From NCBI GenBank assembly GCA_022616555.1, contig JAKEEG010000017.1:1-41181 (forward strand): DNA of 41,181 nucleotides, written 5' to 3'. The notes below the pieces were generated by a model that was not told where the DNA came from, did no database searches, and worked only from the letters and a program-made list of their open reading frames with translations. The stretch comes from Ignavibacteriota bacterium. Its GTDB lineage: Bacteria > Bacteroidota > Ignavibacteria > UBA10030. Both the position numbers and the translations under genes were made by a program. Positions 4,683-14,740 of the stretch are shown in pieces; position 1 is the first letter of the stretch, and the number at the start of each line of letters is the position of its first letter.

Positions 4683-6323
4683 TTACTTCTTATCGACTTT
4701 TTTTATTAAGCGTTCGACGTCTGCTTCTGAGAGTCCAGTGCCATACACAGCGTCCGTCGAAGTTTGTGTTTTTGCAGGAGGAGCGGCTTCTGTCTTCTGA
4801 CTACTGATAACTGACTTCTGTGCAGTGTTCCCGGCTTTCAGGCGGATACGTTCCTCAATTTCGCGGATCCAAGAATGCGATGATTCTACGGTACGTTGAG
4901 GTTTAGGCATTTGAATAGGCTCTGTTGTATTGACGACATCCGCTGAGGTGCTCGCGAATTTTTCCGGCGGATTAATTGGCCGTGTCTCGAACGCCAGTCG
5001 CTTCACGTTGATAAGATGCTTGGCGGAAACATTTTCTGATATGATTGACCCTCCGAATGTGCCGGGTCCCAATGTCATTGAGGGCAGCAATTCGTTCGTA
5101 TAGCCGACAGCCCCGAGAGCCGCTTGCGTGTTCACGAGAACACGGAAGGCGGGCTTTTCAAGTCCAAACTTGAGCACGATTTCCGGGTCGGTGCAATGAA
5201 TCACCATCGTATGCCCGATTCCGCCGAACTCCAGCATCTCGATCGCGCGTTCGCAACCTTCGCGGTAACCGTTGACAGCAAACATCGAGAGCACGGGTGA
5301 GAGCTTCTCTCGGGAGAGAGGATACTCACGTCCAACAGCTGGCAGTTCTGCAATCAGGCACGATGTTTCTCGAGGTACATCGAAACCGGCTTTCCGCGCA
5401 ATGAATGCTGGCGGTTTCCCGACAATGTCAGGATTGATAGCTCCGCGAGGGTCGAACATCGTGCTGCTGAGGCGCGCGATTTCTTCCGGCGAGCAGAAGT
5501 ACGCATCGCGCTTTTTGAATTCGTCGATTACCAAGCGTTTCACCGGCTCATCGACGATGACACCGGATTCTGTCGAACACAAGACGCCCCAGTCGAACAT
5601 TTTGCCGGAGACAATATCGGCGACGGCTTTCTTTACGTTTGCCGTGCGCTCGATAAACGCCGGCACGTTGCCTGAGCCTACGCCGTAGGCAGGTCTGCCA
5701 GAGCTATATGCTGCGCGCACCATCGGATTCGAACCGGTTGCCAGGATGACCGCCGTCTTCTTGTGTTTCATCAGCTCCGTTGTTCCTTCGATCGAAGGAG
5801 TAGACATGCAGGCGATAAGCCCCGGCGGCGCACCGGCTGTTTCTGCGGCTTGTGCGATGATTCGTGTCGCTTCGAATGTTGAATTCACCGCACGCGGATG
5901 GGGGCTTGCAACGAATCCATTGCGCCCTTTCACAGAGATAATGGCTTTGAACATAACTGTGGATGTCGGGTTTGTTGAGGGAATCAACGCAGCAACAACC
6001 CCCATCGGCTCTGCGATCTCAATGATTTTCTTCTCCTGGTCGTCGTTAATGACGCCGACAGTCTTGAGGTCTTTGATGGACTCCCAGACCCGCTTGGTCG
6101 CGAACTCATTCTTTTTCTTTTTATCTTCGGATTTTCCGAAGCCTGTTTCCTCGTGCGCCATCTTGCCGAGCTTCTCAGCAGCAGCAAATCCGGCATCGAC
6201 CATGGCTTTCACGATCTTATCCACCTGCTCTTGTGTGAATTTCCGGAATGCTAGCTGCGCTTCCTTCGCCTTGTTGACGAGATCGCGAGCTTCCTGTATG
6301 GATGTGAGGTCTTTATCTGCCAT
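4683..6323 (-). CDS. CoA-acylating aldehyde dehydrogenase with C-terminal tail helix
   Basis: The 546-residue protein belongs to the CoA-dependent acetaldehyde/propionaldehyde dehydrogenase group (EutE/PduP/AdhE N-terminal type), which converts an aldehyde, CoA and NAD+ to acyl-CoA. The catalytic cysteine is C249 in WGVLCSTESG. Other family blocks are PSTNPTSTVMFKAI near 115-128, EFGGIGHTMVIH near 365-376 and TLGPGTFGGS near 417-426. The catalytic core ends near 460. An extension of about 85 residues follows: a proline/serine-rich linker with a repeat-derived QKSVISSQKTE, then a short amphipathic helix GLSEADVERLIKKV at 530-543. Such linker-plus-helix tails resemble encapsulation peptides of bacterial microcompartment enzymes, but no shell gene lies in the window. 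The physiological aldehyde is unknown. Confidence 0.9.
   Translation of the reverse strand: MADKDLTSIQEARDLVNKAKEAQLAFRKFTQEQVDKIVKAMVDAGFAAAEKLGKMAHEETGFGKSEDKKKKNEFATKRVWESIKDLKTVGVINDDQEKKIIEIAEPMGVVAALIPSTNPTSTVMFKAIISVKGRNGFVASPHPRAVNSTFEATRIIAQAAETAGAPPGLIACMSTPSIEGTTELMKHKKTAVILATGSNPMVRAAYSSGRPAYGVGSGNVPAFIERTANVKKAVADIVSGKMFDWGVLCSTESGVIVDEPVKRLVIDEFKKRDAYFCSPEEIARLSSTMFDPRGAINPDIVGKPPAFIARKAGFDVPRETSCLIAELPAVGREYPLSREKLSPVLSMFAVNGYREGCERAIEMLEFGGIGHTMVIHCTDPEIVLKFGLEKPAFRVLVNTQAALGAVGYTNELLPSMTLGPGTFGGSIISENVSAKHLINVKRLAFETRPINPPEKFASTSADVVNTTEPIQMPKPQRTVESSHSWIREIEERIRLKAGNTAQKSVISSQKTEAAPPAKTQTSTDAVYGTGLSEADVERLIKKVDKK
4787..4820. repeat. 34-bp repeat, copy inside the aldehyde dehydrogenase gene
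   Basis: Plus strand: CTTCTGTCTTCTGACTAC then TGATAACTGACTTCTG. It matches 34420-34453 at 30 of 34 positions with no gaps. On the coding (minus) strand it encodes QKSVISSQKTE in the linker before the tail helix. The unit itself is a degenerate CTTCTGACT tandem. Confidence 0.75.
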
Positions 6324-11198: not shown

Positions 11199-11633
11199 GC
11201 CAGAGGTCGAGCGGAGCCGGTCGATAAGCCGAATTCTGTCTTCCCACTTACGTGGGGAGGCAGTCATTTCTCTGATGCGACCTACCCGTCACTGGTTCAC
11301 CGGAGTGAAGAACGCGCGGGCAACGCGCCTCCCGATGCGAACATCGGGACGTGTGACTTACATGGTCTTGCACCGGGCGGGGTTTGTCGTGCCGCCGCCA
11401 TTGCTGGCGGCGCGGTGGTCTCTTACACCACCTTTTCACCTGTTTCTGTGCGTCCGACATGTCGGAACGCACAGATGTGTTTTTTCTGTGACACTATCCG
11501 TTCGCACGGGATGTTGCTCGTGCGACCCCCGTTTAACACGGGGCACCGTGCCCTTTGGTGTTCGGACTTTCCTCATCCCACTCGCCGAAGCGAACGGAAC
11601 GCGACTGCCTGACCGAACTCCGCGACCTCTGGC
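11199..11633 (-). ncRNA. rnpB: RNase P RNA (bacterial type A-like)
   Basis: The ends pair perfectly as helix P1: GCCAGAGGTCG at the 5' end (11633-11623) and CGACCTCTGGC at the 3' end (11209-11199). Conserved regions occur in order: GAGGAAAGTCCGAACACC (CR-I, part of P4), AAAAGGTGGTGTAAGAGACC, CGGTGCAAGACC, AGAGAAATGACTGCC, and ACAGAATTCGGCTTA (CR-V). The length is 435 nt. RNase P RNA is the catalytic subunit that matures tRNA 5' ends. The gene sits between the RNase HI-like gene (14 nt upstream) and recJ (31 nt downstream), all on the minus strand, with no recognisable dedicated promoter in the gap. Confidence 0.95.
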
Positions 11634-11647
11634 ATTTGCTTTACACT

Positions 11648-12064
11648 TTACACCGTCATGCGGCGCTTGGTATCGATGCCCAGGTTGGCGAGCTCGTCCG
11701 CTTCCTTGTTCTTCTCGCGCATGACGTGTTTAATTTCAAACTCGAATGAAGCGTCCTGCAACAGCTTGTGCACTTCTTGAAAATGCTTTTTCAGCGTTGC
11801 ATCTTTTACACGGTACTTTCCGTGCAGTTGCTTCACCATCAGCTCGCTATCCGAGTGGACGACAAGTTTCGAGCACTCCATGCTGCGCACCATCTGCAGG
11901 CATGTTCTCAAAGCAGTGTATTCGGCAATGTTGTTCGTCGCTGTGCCGATGTAGCTAAATTCTTTTCTGAGCACTTCGCCGTTGTGGTCTTTCAGTAGAA
12001 TGCCAATTCCGCTCTCGCCCGGATTGTTACGAGACGCCCCGTCGATAAACGCGTAAATCGTCAT
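11648..12064 (-). CDS. RNase HI-like ribonuclease
   Basis: This 138-residue protein has the RNase H fold and carries the four acidic catalytic positions: D8 in FIDGASRNNPG, E47 in NNIAEYTAL, D71 in VHSDSEL, and the aspartate in NKEADELANLGID. It should cleave the RNA strand of RNA:DNA hybrids. It is of the short RnhA-like type, without the basic handle of E. coli RNase HI. Its ATG overlaps the zinc-ribbon gene stop by 4 nt (ATGA at 12061-12064). The 5' end of rnpB lies only 14 nt past its stop. Confidence 0.9.
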   Translation of the reverse strand: MTIYAFIDGASRNNPGESGIGILLKDHNGEVLRKEFSYIGTATNNIAEYTALRTCLQMVRSMECSKLVVHSDSELMVKQLHGKYRVKDATLKKHFQEVHKLLQDASFEFEIKHVMREKNKEADELANLGIDTKRRMTV

Positions 12065-12792
12065 TGTAGAGCGCAGGCACTTTCGACGATCTCGTCGGAG
12101 ACCAGCATTCTGCCGCAGTGCTCACAGACAAGGATTTTCGTGTTTTTCCGTAATTCGAGCACCGTCTGCGGCGGTATTCGGTTGAAACAGCCGCCACAGG
12201 CATTTCGTTTCACAGGTACAACTGCCTTGCCGGCTTTAGCTTTGCGCACACGCTCGTACTGTCGCAGGTCGGCTTTGTCCAGCCGGACGACGATTTTTTC
12301 TCGTTCGTGCCGCAGCTTAGTTTCTTCTTCTTCGTGCTCTTTGTTCACCAACGCAAGCTCCGACATCCGCTCATCGAGTTCTTTACGCAATTCCTCAATT
12401 TCGGGGCCAAGCTTTTCGGCATCGGCTTTAGCGACGCTTGCTTTGCCTTCCAAGCTTTCAATATCGCGGGTTAGCTTGGCGATTTTTTCCTGAGCATGGT
12501 CGGCTTCCCGCGCAAGCGCATCGTACTGGCGGTTCGTCTTCACCTCGAATTGCTGCGTTTTGTATTTTTCGATGTGCTCTTTTAGCGACAGGATTTCCAA
12601 GTCAGCTTGGTCGCGGGAAACAATCGATTTCGAGAGGGTTTCTTCAAGGCCTCTCTTCCGGTCTTCCTTTTTTTGAAGCTGTTGTTCCAAGTTTGCTACA
12701 ACGTGTGGTAAATCTCCTTTGAGTTCCTGCACTTCATCGAGATTTAAGTCAATTTTTTGAAGCGCATACAAGAGCCGTAAACGATTTTCCAA
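12061..12792 (-). CDS. C4-type zinc ribbon coiled-coil protein (DUF164 type)
   Basis: This 243-residue protein is mostly heptad-patterned, charged helix (about 5-180), predicted to form a long antiparallel coiled coil. It ends in a zinc ribbon: CGGC at about 202-205 and CEHC about 22 residues later. This matches the zf-RING_7/DUF164 family, whose members have been suggested to bind nucleic acid but lack a settled function. The start is TTG at 12792, supported by an AAGGAG eight nt upstream. It is cotranscribed with the NIF3-like gene (13 nt gap) and the RNase HI-like gene (4 nt overlap). Confidence 0.88.
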   Translation of the reverse strand: MENRLRLLYALQKIDLNLDEVQELKGDLPHVVANLEQQLQKKEDRKRGLEETLSKSIVSRDQADLEILSLKEHIEKYKTQQFEVKTNRQYDALAREADHAQEKIAKLTRDIESLEGKASVAKADAEKLGPEIEELRKELDERMSELALVNKEHEEEETKLRHEREKIVVRLDKADLRQYERVRKAKAGKAVVPVKRNACGGCFNRIPPQTVLELRKNTKILVCEHCGRMLVSDEIVESACALQ

Positions 12793-12800
12793 ATTGAATG

Positions 12801-12806
12801 CTCCTT
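12801..12806 (-). promoter_or_regulatory. Ribosome binding site fixing a TTG start
   Basis: On the minus strand AAGGAG lies 8 nt before the TTG at 12792 and overlaps the stop codon of the NIF3-like gene. It decides in favour of the TTG start, since no ATG or GTG is placed nearby. Confidence 0.7.
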
Positions 12807-13915
12807 CAGTAACTATAATGTGTTGGGTTTGTCGAAAACTTAGTAACGCGTACTGTCAATTGTTCCTTGCTGTGCCGTGCTGCCTCACGAAGTCGTTTGG
12901 CAAGTGGTTCAAGAATCACCTGCTCGGTTTCCCAATGCCCGGCATCCACTAATGCGATTGTACCTTCCGCCGAGTGGTATGTATGGTATTTAACATCGGC
13001 AGTAACGAATGCGTCTGCGTTAGCTCTCACAGCTGTTTGCAAGAGGTCTGAGCCGCTCCCGCCGCACACAGCGATTTTTTGAACACGCTGTTTGGCTCCT
13101 GCCGTATAGCGCACGGCCTCGGCTTTAAGCGATTTCTTCACAAGCTGCAAAAACGATTTCAGCGGCATGCTGTTTGGCAGATCGCCAATTGCGCCCATGC
13201 CGTAATTTGTGCTGTCGTTTTCTAGCGGATAAACATCATATGCAATTTCTTCGTACGGGTGCGCTGTTTTCATCGCCGATACGATTGTATTCACGGCTCC
13301 GCGCGGAGCGATCATTTCAAGTCGAACTTCCTCAACCGTTTCTAATTTGTTCGCTGTGCCAATGAATGGGTTCGTCGATGCGGAGCCCCGGAACGTCCCT
13401 GTTCCGCTTATGCGATATGAACACGAGGAATACTCCCCGATGACCCCTGCGCCGGCGTCCGACATAGCATCCGCCACACGCTCAACATGTTCTTGCGGCA
13501 CGAAGACGACAATTTTCGACGACAAGCCTTTCAAAGGAGAAAGAAATCTTATGTTCGTTAGCCCAAACTTTTCCGCAAACGCAAAACTGACGCCGTGTTT
13601 TGTAAAATCAAGATTCGTATGAGCCGAATAAACAGCGATGTTCGATTTTGCTAATTTCAGCACGAGCTTTCCCGTTTCGTCTGTTGTTGTGACCGCTTTC
13701 AGCGGACGAAACAACAGCGGGTGATGCGAAACAATCAGCTCTGCCCGTTGTGCGATAGCCTCTGTGACAATTTTCTCTGTGACATCAAGCGCAACAAGGA
13801 TTTTTGAAACATGCCGCGAACGGTCTCCAAGTTGTAAACCGACATTATCTTTCTCCCACGCAATCCATTTTGGCGCCCACGCTTCGATGATGTGTTCGAT
13901 ATCCGCTATCGTCAT
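12806..13915 (-). CDS. NIF3-like (DUF34) dinuclear metal-centre protein
   Basis: This 369-residue protein is of the long YqfO type: an N-terminal half with metal ligands in VSHHPLLF, a CutA/PII-like insert (roughly 130-240, with IAPRGAVNTIVSAMKTAHPYEE), and a C-terminal half with the remaining ligands in DAGHWETE. NIF3/DUF34 proteins bind two metals; a GTP cyclohydrolase I type 2 annotation is common in databases, but the function is unsettled. The start ATG at 13915 has AAAGGAAC a few nt upstream. Its leader contains a strong intrinsic terminator ending 35 nt before the start, so expression may be controlled by readthrough. Confidence 0.9.
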   Translation of the reverse strand: MTIADIEHIIEAWAPKWIAWEKDNVGLQLGDRSRHVSKILVALDVTEKIVTEAIAQRAELIVSHHPLLFRPLKAVTTTDETGKLVLKLAKSNIAVYSAHTNLDFTKHGVSFAFAEKFGLTNIRFLSPLKGLSSKIVVFVPQEHVERVADAMSDAGAGVIGEYSSCSYRISGTGTFRGSASTNPFIGTANKLETVEEVRLEMIAPRGAVNTIVSAMKTAHPYEEIAYDVYPLENDSTNYGMGAIGDLPNSMPLKSFLQLVKKSLKAEAVRYTAGAKQRVQKIAVCGGSGSDLLQTAVRANADAFVTADVKYHTYHSAEGTIALVDAGHWETEQVILEPLAKRLREAARHSKEQLTVRVTKFSTNPTHYSY

Positions 13916-13950
13916 CCATGTTCCTTTGAATCACCATCCCAATAGGGGAT

Positions 13951-13985
13951 AAAAAAAGTGTCCCGCCTCTTGGGCGGGACACTTT
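13951..13985 (-). terminator. Strong intrinsic terminator upstream of the NIF3-like gene
   Basis: Arms AAAGTGTCCCGCC (13955-13967) and GGCGGGACACTTT (13973-13985) form a perfect 13-bp stem with a 5-nt loop. On the minus strand the hairpin is followed by a run of seven T (13957-13951, overlapping the stem base). On the plus strand no T tract follows, so it acts on minus-strand transcripts, before the NIF3-like gene. Confidence 0.85.
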
Positions 13986-14087
13986 GACGAGATTTAGTCA
14001 AGTAGATAAACGACAACCGGATGTTTTTGCCTTTTCGTCTTGAGCATCGCCTGCAGTTAAACCAACTTGTGTGTATGAGTAAATCGC
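13951..14087 (-). ncRNA. Candidate small RNA or attenuated leader
   Basis: A minus-strand transcript of about 135 nt is outlined by a plausible promoter (14092-14119) and the strong terminator at 13951-13985. Just inside the predicted start, GATTTACTCA (14085-14076) pairs with TGACTAAATC (14000-13991) at nine of ten positions, closing a domain of about 95 nt that contains an AGTT/AACT hairpin. The domain ends directly at the terminator stem. I could not match it to 6S, SRP RNA, tmRNA or a known riboswitch. It may be a stand-alone sRNA or a cis leader of the NIF3 operon. Confidence 0.45.
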
Positions 14088-14091
14088 CGTA

Positions 14092-14119
14092 GATATATAG
14101 TAGAGAAAAAAAGGCACAA
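14092..14119 (-). promoter_or_regulatory. Candidate promoter for the leader/sRNA
   Basis: The minus strand reads TTGTGC (14119-14114), a 16-nt T-rich spacer, then TATATC (14097-14092). Initiation would fall near 14087-14085, exactly where the paired GATTTACTCA arm starts. Confidence 0.4.
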
Positions 14120-14161
14120 AAGCAAGCTTTGGAATTGACCATACTGTTTAGCGTATTGCAC

Positions 14162-14190
14162 TTGCTTTTTGTGTATTGTGTCTCTACAAT
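14162..14190 (+). promoter_or_regulatory. Candidate sigma-70 type promoter of the OsmC-like gene
   Basis: TTGCTT (14162-14167), a 17-nt spacer and TACAAT (14185-14190) make a near-consensus promoter. Transcription would begin near 14197, giving a leader of about 90 nt. Confidence 0.55.
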
Positions 14191-14287: not shown

Positions 14288-14740
14288 ATGGGTGAAGTCA
14301 AAACAATGACCGTGCAGCACCTTTCGGGTCATGCATTTGCTGCCAAGGGCGGCTCGAATCATTATGCCATCATCGATGGAGGTTCAGAAGGCCAACCGGC
14401 AGGAGCGCAGGGACCGATGGAAATGATCCTTGCCGCATTAGGAAGTTGCTCGGGCGGCGATGTGGTGGAGATTCTCAAAAAAAAGCGGCAGGACGTCCGC
14501 AGGTTTTCAGTTCAGCTTTCAGGCGAACGGGCTGAAGACCATCCGCGGGTCTATAAAAAAATCCATATGAAGTTTATCATTCACGGCAAGAACGTCGAAA
14601 GAGCTGCCGCGGAGCGTGCCATTGAGCTTTCGTTAACCAAGTACTGTTCAATCAATGGTATGCTCTCGAAGGTTGTTGACATCACGCACGACTATGAACT
14701 ACACGAGTGGGATGCGGAGACCGAGCACGTAAGCGGTTAA
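14288..14740 (+). CDS. OsmC/YhfA-like peroxide-related protein
   Basis: This 150-residue protein has the OsmC fold with both conserved cysteines: C54 in ALGSCSGGDV and C120 in LTKYCSINGML. In the family these form the thiol pair used to reduce organic hydroperoxides. The sequence is nearest the YhfA-like branch, whose substrate is less clear than that of Ohr. The start ATG follows AGAGGA at a good distance. The 3' end overlaps the convergent receiver-DHp gene by 4 nt. Confidence 0.88.
   Translation: MGEVKTMTVQHLSGHAFAAKGGSNHYAIIDGGSEGQPAGAQGPMEMILAALGSCSGGDVVEILKKKRQDVRRFSVQLSGERAEDHPRVYKKIHMKFIIHGKNVERAAAERAIELSLTKYCSINGMLSKVVDITHDYELHEWDAETEHVSG

Follow-up and report, generated by a model that had tools for sequence, protein, structure and literature searches.

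A conserved short reading frame and terminator ahead of nif3 in Ignavibacteria: a putative translation-coupled transcription attenuator

The nif3 locus and its leader

The window analysed here is a stretch of 41,181 nucleotides from an Ignavibacteriota bacterium (assembly GCA_022616555.1, contig JAKEEG010000017.1, positions 1 to 41,181 of the forward strand). Its minus strand carries a NIF3/DUF34 gene, two further protein genes and the RNA of RNase P, and directly ahead of the NIF3 gene lie a promoter, a short open reading frame (ORF) and an intrinsic terminator:

14120 to 14125, minus strand: -35 element TTGCTT of the leader promoter, whose copy in the window has 3 mismatches
14097 to 14102, minus strand: -10 element TACTAT of the leader promoter, separated from the -35 element by a 17-nt spacer
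13994 to 14047, minus strand: leader ORF of 17 codons, MLKTKRQKHPVVVYLLD, with a TAA stop 11 nt before the stem core
13955 to 13985, minus strand: intrinsic terminator hairpin, AAAGTGTCCCGCC-CAAGA-GGCGGGACACTTT, a perfect 13-bp stem
13951 to 13957, minus strand: T-run of the terminator, read from the sequence
12806 to 13915, minus strand: NIF3/DUF34 gene, the first gene behind the putative attenuator (Pfam PF01784, E 1.4e-82)
12061 to 12792, minus strand: second gene, a protein with a C4 zinc ribbon (PF02591)
11648 to 12064, minus strand: third gene, an RNase H-like protein (domain search)
11209 to 11621, minus strand: rnpB, RNase P RNA type A, further downstream (Rfam RF00010, 214.5 bits)

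The NIF3 gene opens with the ATG at 13915, another ATG at 13919 being in a different frame, and the product of the second gene (12061 to 12792) is, in our reading, a coiled coil. A preliminary description of the region had reported a 13-bp terminator with a T run some 35 nt ahead of a NIF3-like start, and both statements are confirmed: a perfect hairpin extends from 13985 to 13955, its T's reach 13951, and the terminator ends ~35 nt 5' of the NIF3 ATG. The 17-codon ORF, which lies inside a supposed 95-nt structured domain, had been overlooked. A 76-codon ORF in another frame (14142 to 13912), starting 5' of the promoter, also spans the leader.

Conservation of hairpin, promoter and reading frame

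We compared the regions upstream of NIF3 in 133 genomes, drawn from the window's own family (f1), from five more in the same order and from eight that belong to the class but to other orders; G049, whose contig begins within NIF3, and G141, whose contig breaks off, stood outside this set. A hairpin precedes NIF3 at 132 of the 133 loci, in 13 families, the sole exception being G115 (family f15), and in two of the 132 it is incomplete (no T-run in G014; partly masked in the assembly of G016). These calls comprise 129 made automatically, five of them corrected by hand (a spurious call in G023; poor stems in G100, G110, G145 and G027), and three placed by hand where no automatic call was made (G014, G119 and G016). 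NIF3 begins 7–65 nt past the stem core at 131 loci and 152 nt past it in G023.

Within the window's family the stem itself is close to invariant. NIF3 was found in 31 of the 32 f1 genomes, with the hairpin preceding it, and 30 of the 32 contain an exact match to the stem pattern TGTCCCGC..GCGGGACA, which 28 of them have only once; the two genomes lacking the pattern are G016, with assembly Ns in the stem, and G017, in which no NIF3 was found. A 69-nt probe of the G021 stem matched 25/32 f1 genomes, as compared to 4/32 and 4/32 for probes of two other strong terminators of G021 (source genome counted each time). Scanning 84,980 species, one genome each, with a longer stem pattern returned 37 stretches, 25 with NIF3 behind the match and a further one (L114) cut at the edge; the titles of 18 of these 26 records name Ignavibacteria, Ignavibacteriae or Ignavibacteriales, and those of the remainder Bacteroidetes, Bacteroidota, Bacteroidia, Chlorobi or bacterium. 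On these comparisons the f1 stem is kept letter by letter, though structure alone would permit compensating changes, and its invariance could possibly reflect the binding of a factor or some further role of the stem. Other families have stem sequences of their own: GTGTCCCGCC is shared by f1 and part of f6, GTGTTCC is found in f12, GTGTCCG in most of f9, and TGCACTCC or TGCACTTC in many members of f14, f24, f16 and f27. The structure and its place are therefore older than the sequence.

The preliminary description had proposed looking for conservation in relatives. Promoter, short ORF and terminator are kept as an arrangement, but strong DNA matches cover the hairpin only: when a 186-nt probe of the region was run against 41 genomes, its strong matches to relatives aligned over nothing else. 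The promoter-like pair that had been described, -35 and -10 boxes with a 17-nt spacer, is present. The window's own copy is weak, and a consensus scan of the window listed no promoter at the leader site; our trust in it rests on its conservation among relatives. Searching the region 60–180 nt 5' of the stem (129 loci; G043, G213 and G262 left out) recovered a promoter with a 17-nt spacer and at most two mismatches at 119/129 loci (shuffled mean 8.8, maximum 13) and one with at most one mismatch at 76 (shuffled mean 0.7, maximum 3), while spacers of other lengths gave a far weaker signal. Transcription would start near 14090.

The position of the leader stop codon is likewise conserved. At 132 loci, the longest leader ORF beginning with ATG stops between -20 and +12 nt of the stem core in 91 cases, runs through the stem in 32 and ends well ahead of it in 2; the remaining 7 have no such ORF of at least 8 codons and include G043 (cut contig) and G062 (GTG start). 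In 200 dinucleotide shuffles, near stops averaged 17.6 (maximum 29, as compared to the real 91), and ORFs reaching -20 or beyond averaged 49.7 (maximum 64), as compared to the real 123. Taking one genome per genus (81 genera) left 55 near, 19 through, 2 short and 5 without an ORF, again far above the shuffles (55 near versus a mean of 10.6 and maximum of 20; 74 reaching versus 31.1 and 42). Four masked or cut leaders (G016, G043, G213 and G262) were kept in these ORF-stop counts and excluded from the fold, antiterminator, amino-acid, codon-run and U-tract tests below. As a control, 30 terminators behind frames of at least 100 codons, drawn from 800 kb in two compared genomes, lie a median of 30 nt past the stop, only 5/30 within 20 nt; the difference from the leaders is significant both by loci (Fisher p 1.9e-7) and by genera (1.4e-6). 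In family f7, an ORF of 20–21 codons stops at offset 0 of the stem core in 6 of the 8 terminator-bearing genomes, one of which (G158) also has a longer 22-codon ORF in another frame that stops at -20.

The peptide, by contrast with its stop, leaves little trace. In 16 groups of near relatives, chosen by hand, the first, second and third codon positions carry 91/103/134 substitutions, a mild preference for the third, and changed codons are synonymous in 62/239 cases in frame as compared to 40/234 and 37/240 out of frame; the largest group (g61) shows next to no excess (16/87 versus 13/86 and 14/88). Leader peptides also differ from family to family. As judged from these alignments, the leader retains its frame and the place of its stop but hardly its peptide sequence, and we rejected the idea of the leader peptide as a conserved protein on account of its weak in-frame signal.

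In 9 of the 32 read-through loci (G021, G045, G011, G015, G016, G005, G018, G065 and G293), the TGA stop of the leader ORF and the start of NIF3 overlap within an ATGA, an arrangement that is also suggestive of translational coupling.

A predicted translation-coupled attenuator and its rivals

The preliminary description saw in this leader a structured RNA, closed by a nine-of-ten pairing around a 95-nt domain, and likened it to an attenuating riboswitch. That pairing is at chance level: dinucleotide shuffles of the leader gave a pairing of 9/10 or 10/10 spanning at least 70 nt in 57 of 200 cases. Stripped of the terminator, the window's leader folds no better than its shuffles (z 0.09; 106/200 at least as good), as do 128 leaders on average (mean z -0.05; z < -2 in 6/128); the lower score of the whole 169-nt stretch (z -2.62) is therefore mostly the terminator's. 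The domain had been said to match no familiar class, and Rfam bears this out: at the gathering cut-off rnpB is the sole match in the window and the region has none. Relaxed thresholds gave seven matches in the region, all far below cut-off (Phe_leader at 18.2 bits and ryfA at 15.2 bits, for example), which we judged to be chance, several of them resting on the terminator. Nor does the leader hold an alternative antiterminator pairing, which had been put forward as the mark of a riboswitch: across 128 loci the pairing of the left arm with the leader scores z +0.33, and no alternative is stronger than the hairpin (0/128). What stands of the earlier reading is the conserved terminator ahead of the NIF3 operon, an attenuator by its position; the aptamer fold, the Rfam match and the alternative pairing are missing, and we rejected a riboswitch or structured domain on the Rfam and folding results. 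A riboswitch or a trans-acting small RNA would fit the terminator and the defined short transcript predicted here; set against the unstructured leaders, the empty Rfam search and DNA matches confined to the hairpin, it is highly improbable.

The order promoter, ORF, terminator, nif3 is conserved, the stop position is kept, alternative pairing is lacking and the spacing is unlike that of ordinary genes. We consider it probable that the element is a translation-coupled transcription attenuator resembling that of E. coli pyrBI. RNA polymerase would start near 14090, transcribe the leader with its short ORF and reach the terminator just before nif3; because in most genomes the terminator stands too close to NIF3 to leave room for a second promoter, nif3 transcription would have to pass it. 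A ribosome that kept pace would be at the stop codon, or in some lineages passing through the hairpin, while the terminator emerged, and its footprint would hide the left arm, so that no stem would form and the nif3 operon would be transcribed. Were the leader untranslated or translated too slowly, the terminator would fold and only a short RNA of ~140 nt would result. The ribosome would be the obvious antiterminator because no leader sequence can hold the left arm, and the signal would be the pace of translation relative to transcription, not one amino acid. For the present organism, translation of the leader ORF and shielding by the ribosome are what we infer from sequence comparison.

Attenuators of the pyrBI kind sense UTP by means of a U-rich pause tract, and pyrE behind rph follows the same leader-ORF/terminator principle. 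In the partial accounts consulted of E. coli pyrBI (pyrL), a short leader ORF runs into or beside an intrinsic terminator and the ribosome suppresses termination on the pyrBI side. The nif3 locus shares two features of this type, namely a leader ORF overlapping or close to the terminator (123/132, window and relatives) and a terminator between that ORF and the first structural gene (hairpin at 132/133). Unlike pyrBI, it has no U-rich pause tract (longest U run 3.87 versus 3.78 shuffled, n=128 leaders), no pyrimidine genes and no peptide conserved between families, and nif3 is where it recurs, across many families within the Bacteroidota/Ignavibacteriota group. If it acts as proposed, the nif3 element is a mechanistic variant of the pyrBI kind, from which it differs in gene, breadth of conservation and the missing pause tract.

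Stop-to-terminator spacing has been measured in E. coli with the engineered tR2 system, and the portions of that report considered here offer a scale for the leaders (PMC4824070). A terminator 5 bp past the stop (17 bp in one series) was repressed to an efficiency of ~0.1, termination was full beyond ~27–30 bp, and repression was lost when translation was uncoupled (PMC4824070). The likeness to the nif3 leader lies in strong repression within a few to ~17 bp of the stop and none beyond ~27–30 bp; unlike it, the tR2 system is no natural conserved regulator, and its repression depends on sequence (~0.8 for a construct at 18 bp in one series as compared to ~0.12 for another at 17 bp). The leader stops fall mostly in the repressing zone or past the stem, and those of most ordinary genes do not, which argues for a translation-coupled attenuator. 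The same report describes terminators within the first 100 bp of a coding region as usually functional, the ribosome not having caught up (PMC4824070); an attenuator of this kind would therefore need quick ribosome loading or a pause of RNA polymerase. In families f2 and f3, the ATG lies 8–9 nt past the -10 box at 16/16 loci, so the transcript would be leaderless or almost leaderless, and such starts may help quick loading. Several points speak against the coupled attenuator: the coding signal is weak; 7/132 loci lack any ATG ORF of 8 codons or more, and in 2 the ORF ends far short; the mechanism as framed would not account for the invariance of the f1 stem; and the terminator is absent in 2/10 f7 genomes, the f23 genome and G115 (f15).

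Other readings of the same arrangement have to be weighed. The leader could be a free-standing gene, equipped with a promoter and a terminator and coding for a basic micro-protein, nif3 being expressed by leaky read-through; such a gene would fit an ORF that has both almost everywhere, the weak in-frame constraint, and a modest lysine excess (279 versus 241 expected; lysine plus arginine 0.248 versus 0.224). We find this unlikely, since the peptides vary from one family to another under weak constraint, 32/132 loci have a longest ORF that continues through the terminator (9 with the ATGA overlap at the NIF3 start), and ordinary genes in two genomes mostly have more than 20 nt between stop and terminator (25/30). 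A bound trans-acting factor (a product of the operon, for example), with the invariant hairpin as its site and the ORF secondary, would explain why TGTCCCGC..GCGGGACA is nearly invariant in 30/32 f1 genomes and why the stem probe matched so many more genomes (25/32) than those of other terminators (4/32 each). Yet the binder is purely hypothetical and the stem differs between families, while the stop position is kept across families with different stems, and we give this reading little credence.

A leader peptide and a terminator ahead of an operon are also what attenuators of the his/trp type have, in which stalling at particular codons releases an antiterminator, and one compared genome (G237, L265, ~5000–5140) does carry a classical his leader peptide, MKNFNNTYHHHHHSNALGVRR, with a terminator before HisG. 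The nif3 leader differs from this type: it has no shared codon run (a triple residue in 14/122 leader peptides, the residues differing), no antiterminator (0/128 loci), and a stop at the stem where that of the his leader is 37 nt upstream. This type is thus very unlikely at nif3. Amino-acid content over 77 genera is near expectation with no amino acid outstanding, and together with the lack of a shared codon run this led us to reject a sensor of codons or amino acids.

Returning to the translation-coupled attenuator, NIF3/DUF34 is described, in the parts of PMC8469502 drawn on here, as widespread and of unsettled role, with a metal chaperone or insertase proposed. A switch before nif3 in so many families hints that NIF3 is wanted when ribosomes match the pace of RNA polymerase. 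Speculatively, and with more doubt than belief, the element, which occurs with its leader ORF in 74 of the 81 genera, might be an ancient sensor of transcription–translation coupling that sets NIF3/DUF34 supply with ribosome pace, rather than a metabolite or amino acid, as its input, its stem being read in addition by a sequence-specific factor; such a factor would account for the invariance of TGTCCCGC/GCGGGACA inside f1. If the coupled mechanism is right, the spacing rule, measured on engineered E. coli constructs, would have a natural and conserved instance in this locus. In related bacteria, leader-peptide attenuation of amino-acid operons is reported for Flavobacterium psychrophilum (PMC9723704) and unvalidated leader-like sORFs are reported for Bacteroides thetaiotaomicron (PMC7366714); the term nif3 is absent from the main texts of both, and a search of the open-licence literature, covering leaders and attenuators ahead of nif3 as well as those of Ignavibacteria, yielded no report of such an element.

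Extent of the element and its surroundings

To which gene the element belongs can be read from genomes in which nif3 and rnpB are apart. rnpB was detected in 42/43 genomes and follows NIF3 on its strand at a distance of at most 2 kb in 31 of the 42 (the window's genome included), so the RNase P RNA may share its control. In the genomes whose rnpB is not within 2 kb of NIF3, the hairpin is still kept (11/11) and the leader ORF is found in 9/11, whereas G115, one of the 31 with rnpB nearby, has no hairpin. The element therefore belongs to nif3. Control of an operon that includes rnpB, suggested by the preliminary description, is possible in the window, where rnpB is downstream, but regulation of rnpB as a general purpose was rejected because the hairpin is kept without a close rnpB and G115 shows the reverse.

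Beyond these loci, the terminator is present in 8/10 genomes of family f7 and in the one f22 genome, and no terminator precedes NIF3 in the other two f7 genomes or in the one f23 genome. Twenty genomes picked from other classes were inspected by eye: two from f39 show a terminator through which an ORF runs, two from f31 combine a terminator with a tRNA-Leu-like gene and lack a leader ORF of their own, and in 16/20 the element was not seen. Within the class, the comparison did not take in families f8, f10, f11, f17–f21, f25, f26 and f28–f30, for which NIF3 was weak, partial or missing among the matches listed, nor members of f15 beyond G115. A scan of 400 kb each of G021 and G237 (31 and 43 terminators called) found the full architecture at the NIF3 locus only: the second candidate in G021 was rejected as lying inside a long ORF, that in G237 as being the his leader. 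With only the NIF3 locus qualifying in these stretches of the two genomes, we also rejected a genome-wide class of such attenuators.

A tRNA-Ala(CGC) gene lies ahead of the nif3 leader region in all 12 genomes of f7 (n=10), f22 and f23 (L268–L278 and L280), in which tRNA, leader and nif3 may share one transcript. In the two f31 loci (L284 and L285), the tRNA-Leu-like gene, recognized by eye, and then the terminator stand directly 5' of nif3, an arrangement that perhaps represents a stage in the origin of the attenuator.

On the far side of the leader promoter, an OsmC-like gene on the plus strand (14288–14740) lies between the promoter and a response-regulator gene, and in several relatives the stretch just 5' of the promoter resembles, by eye, the end of a response-regulator gene on the NIF3 strand. 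Between the -35 box, which it overlaps, and the divergent OsmC gene, the window also has an imperfect inverted repeat, CTTGCTTTTGTG / ACACAAAAAGCAAG on the minus strand (14115–14126 and 14161–14174), part of a 30-nt pair that is 70% complementary and a possible candidate for an operator.
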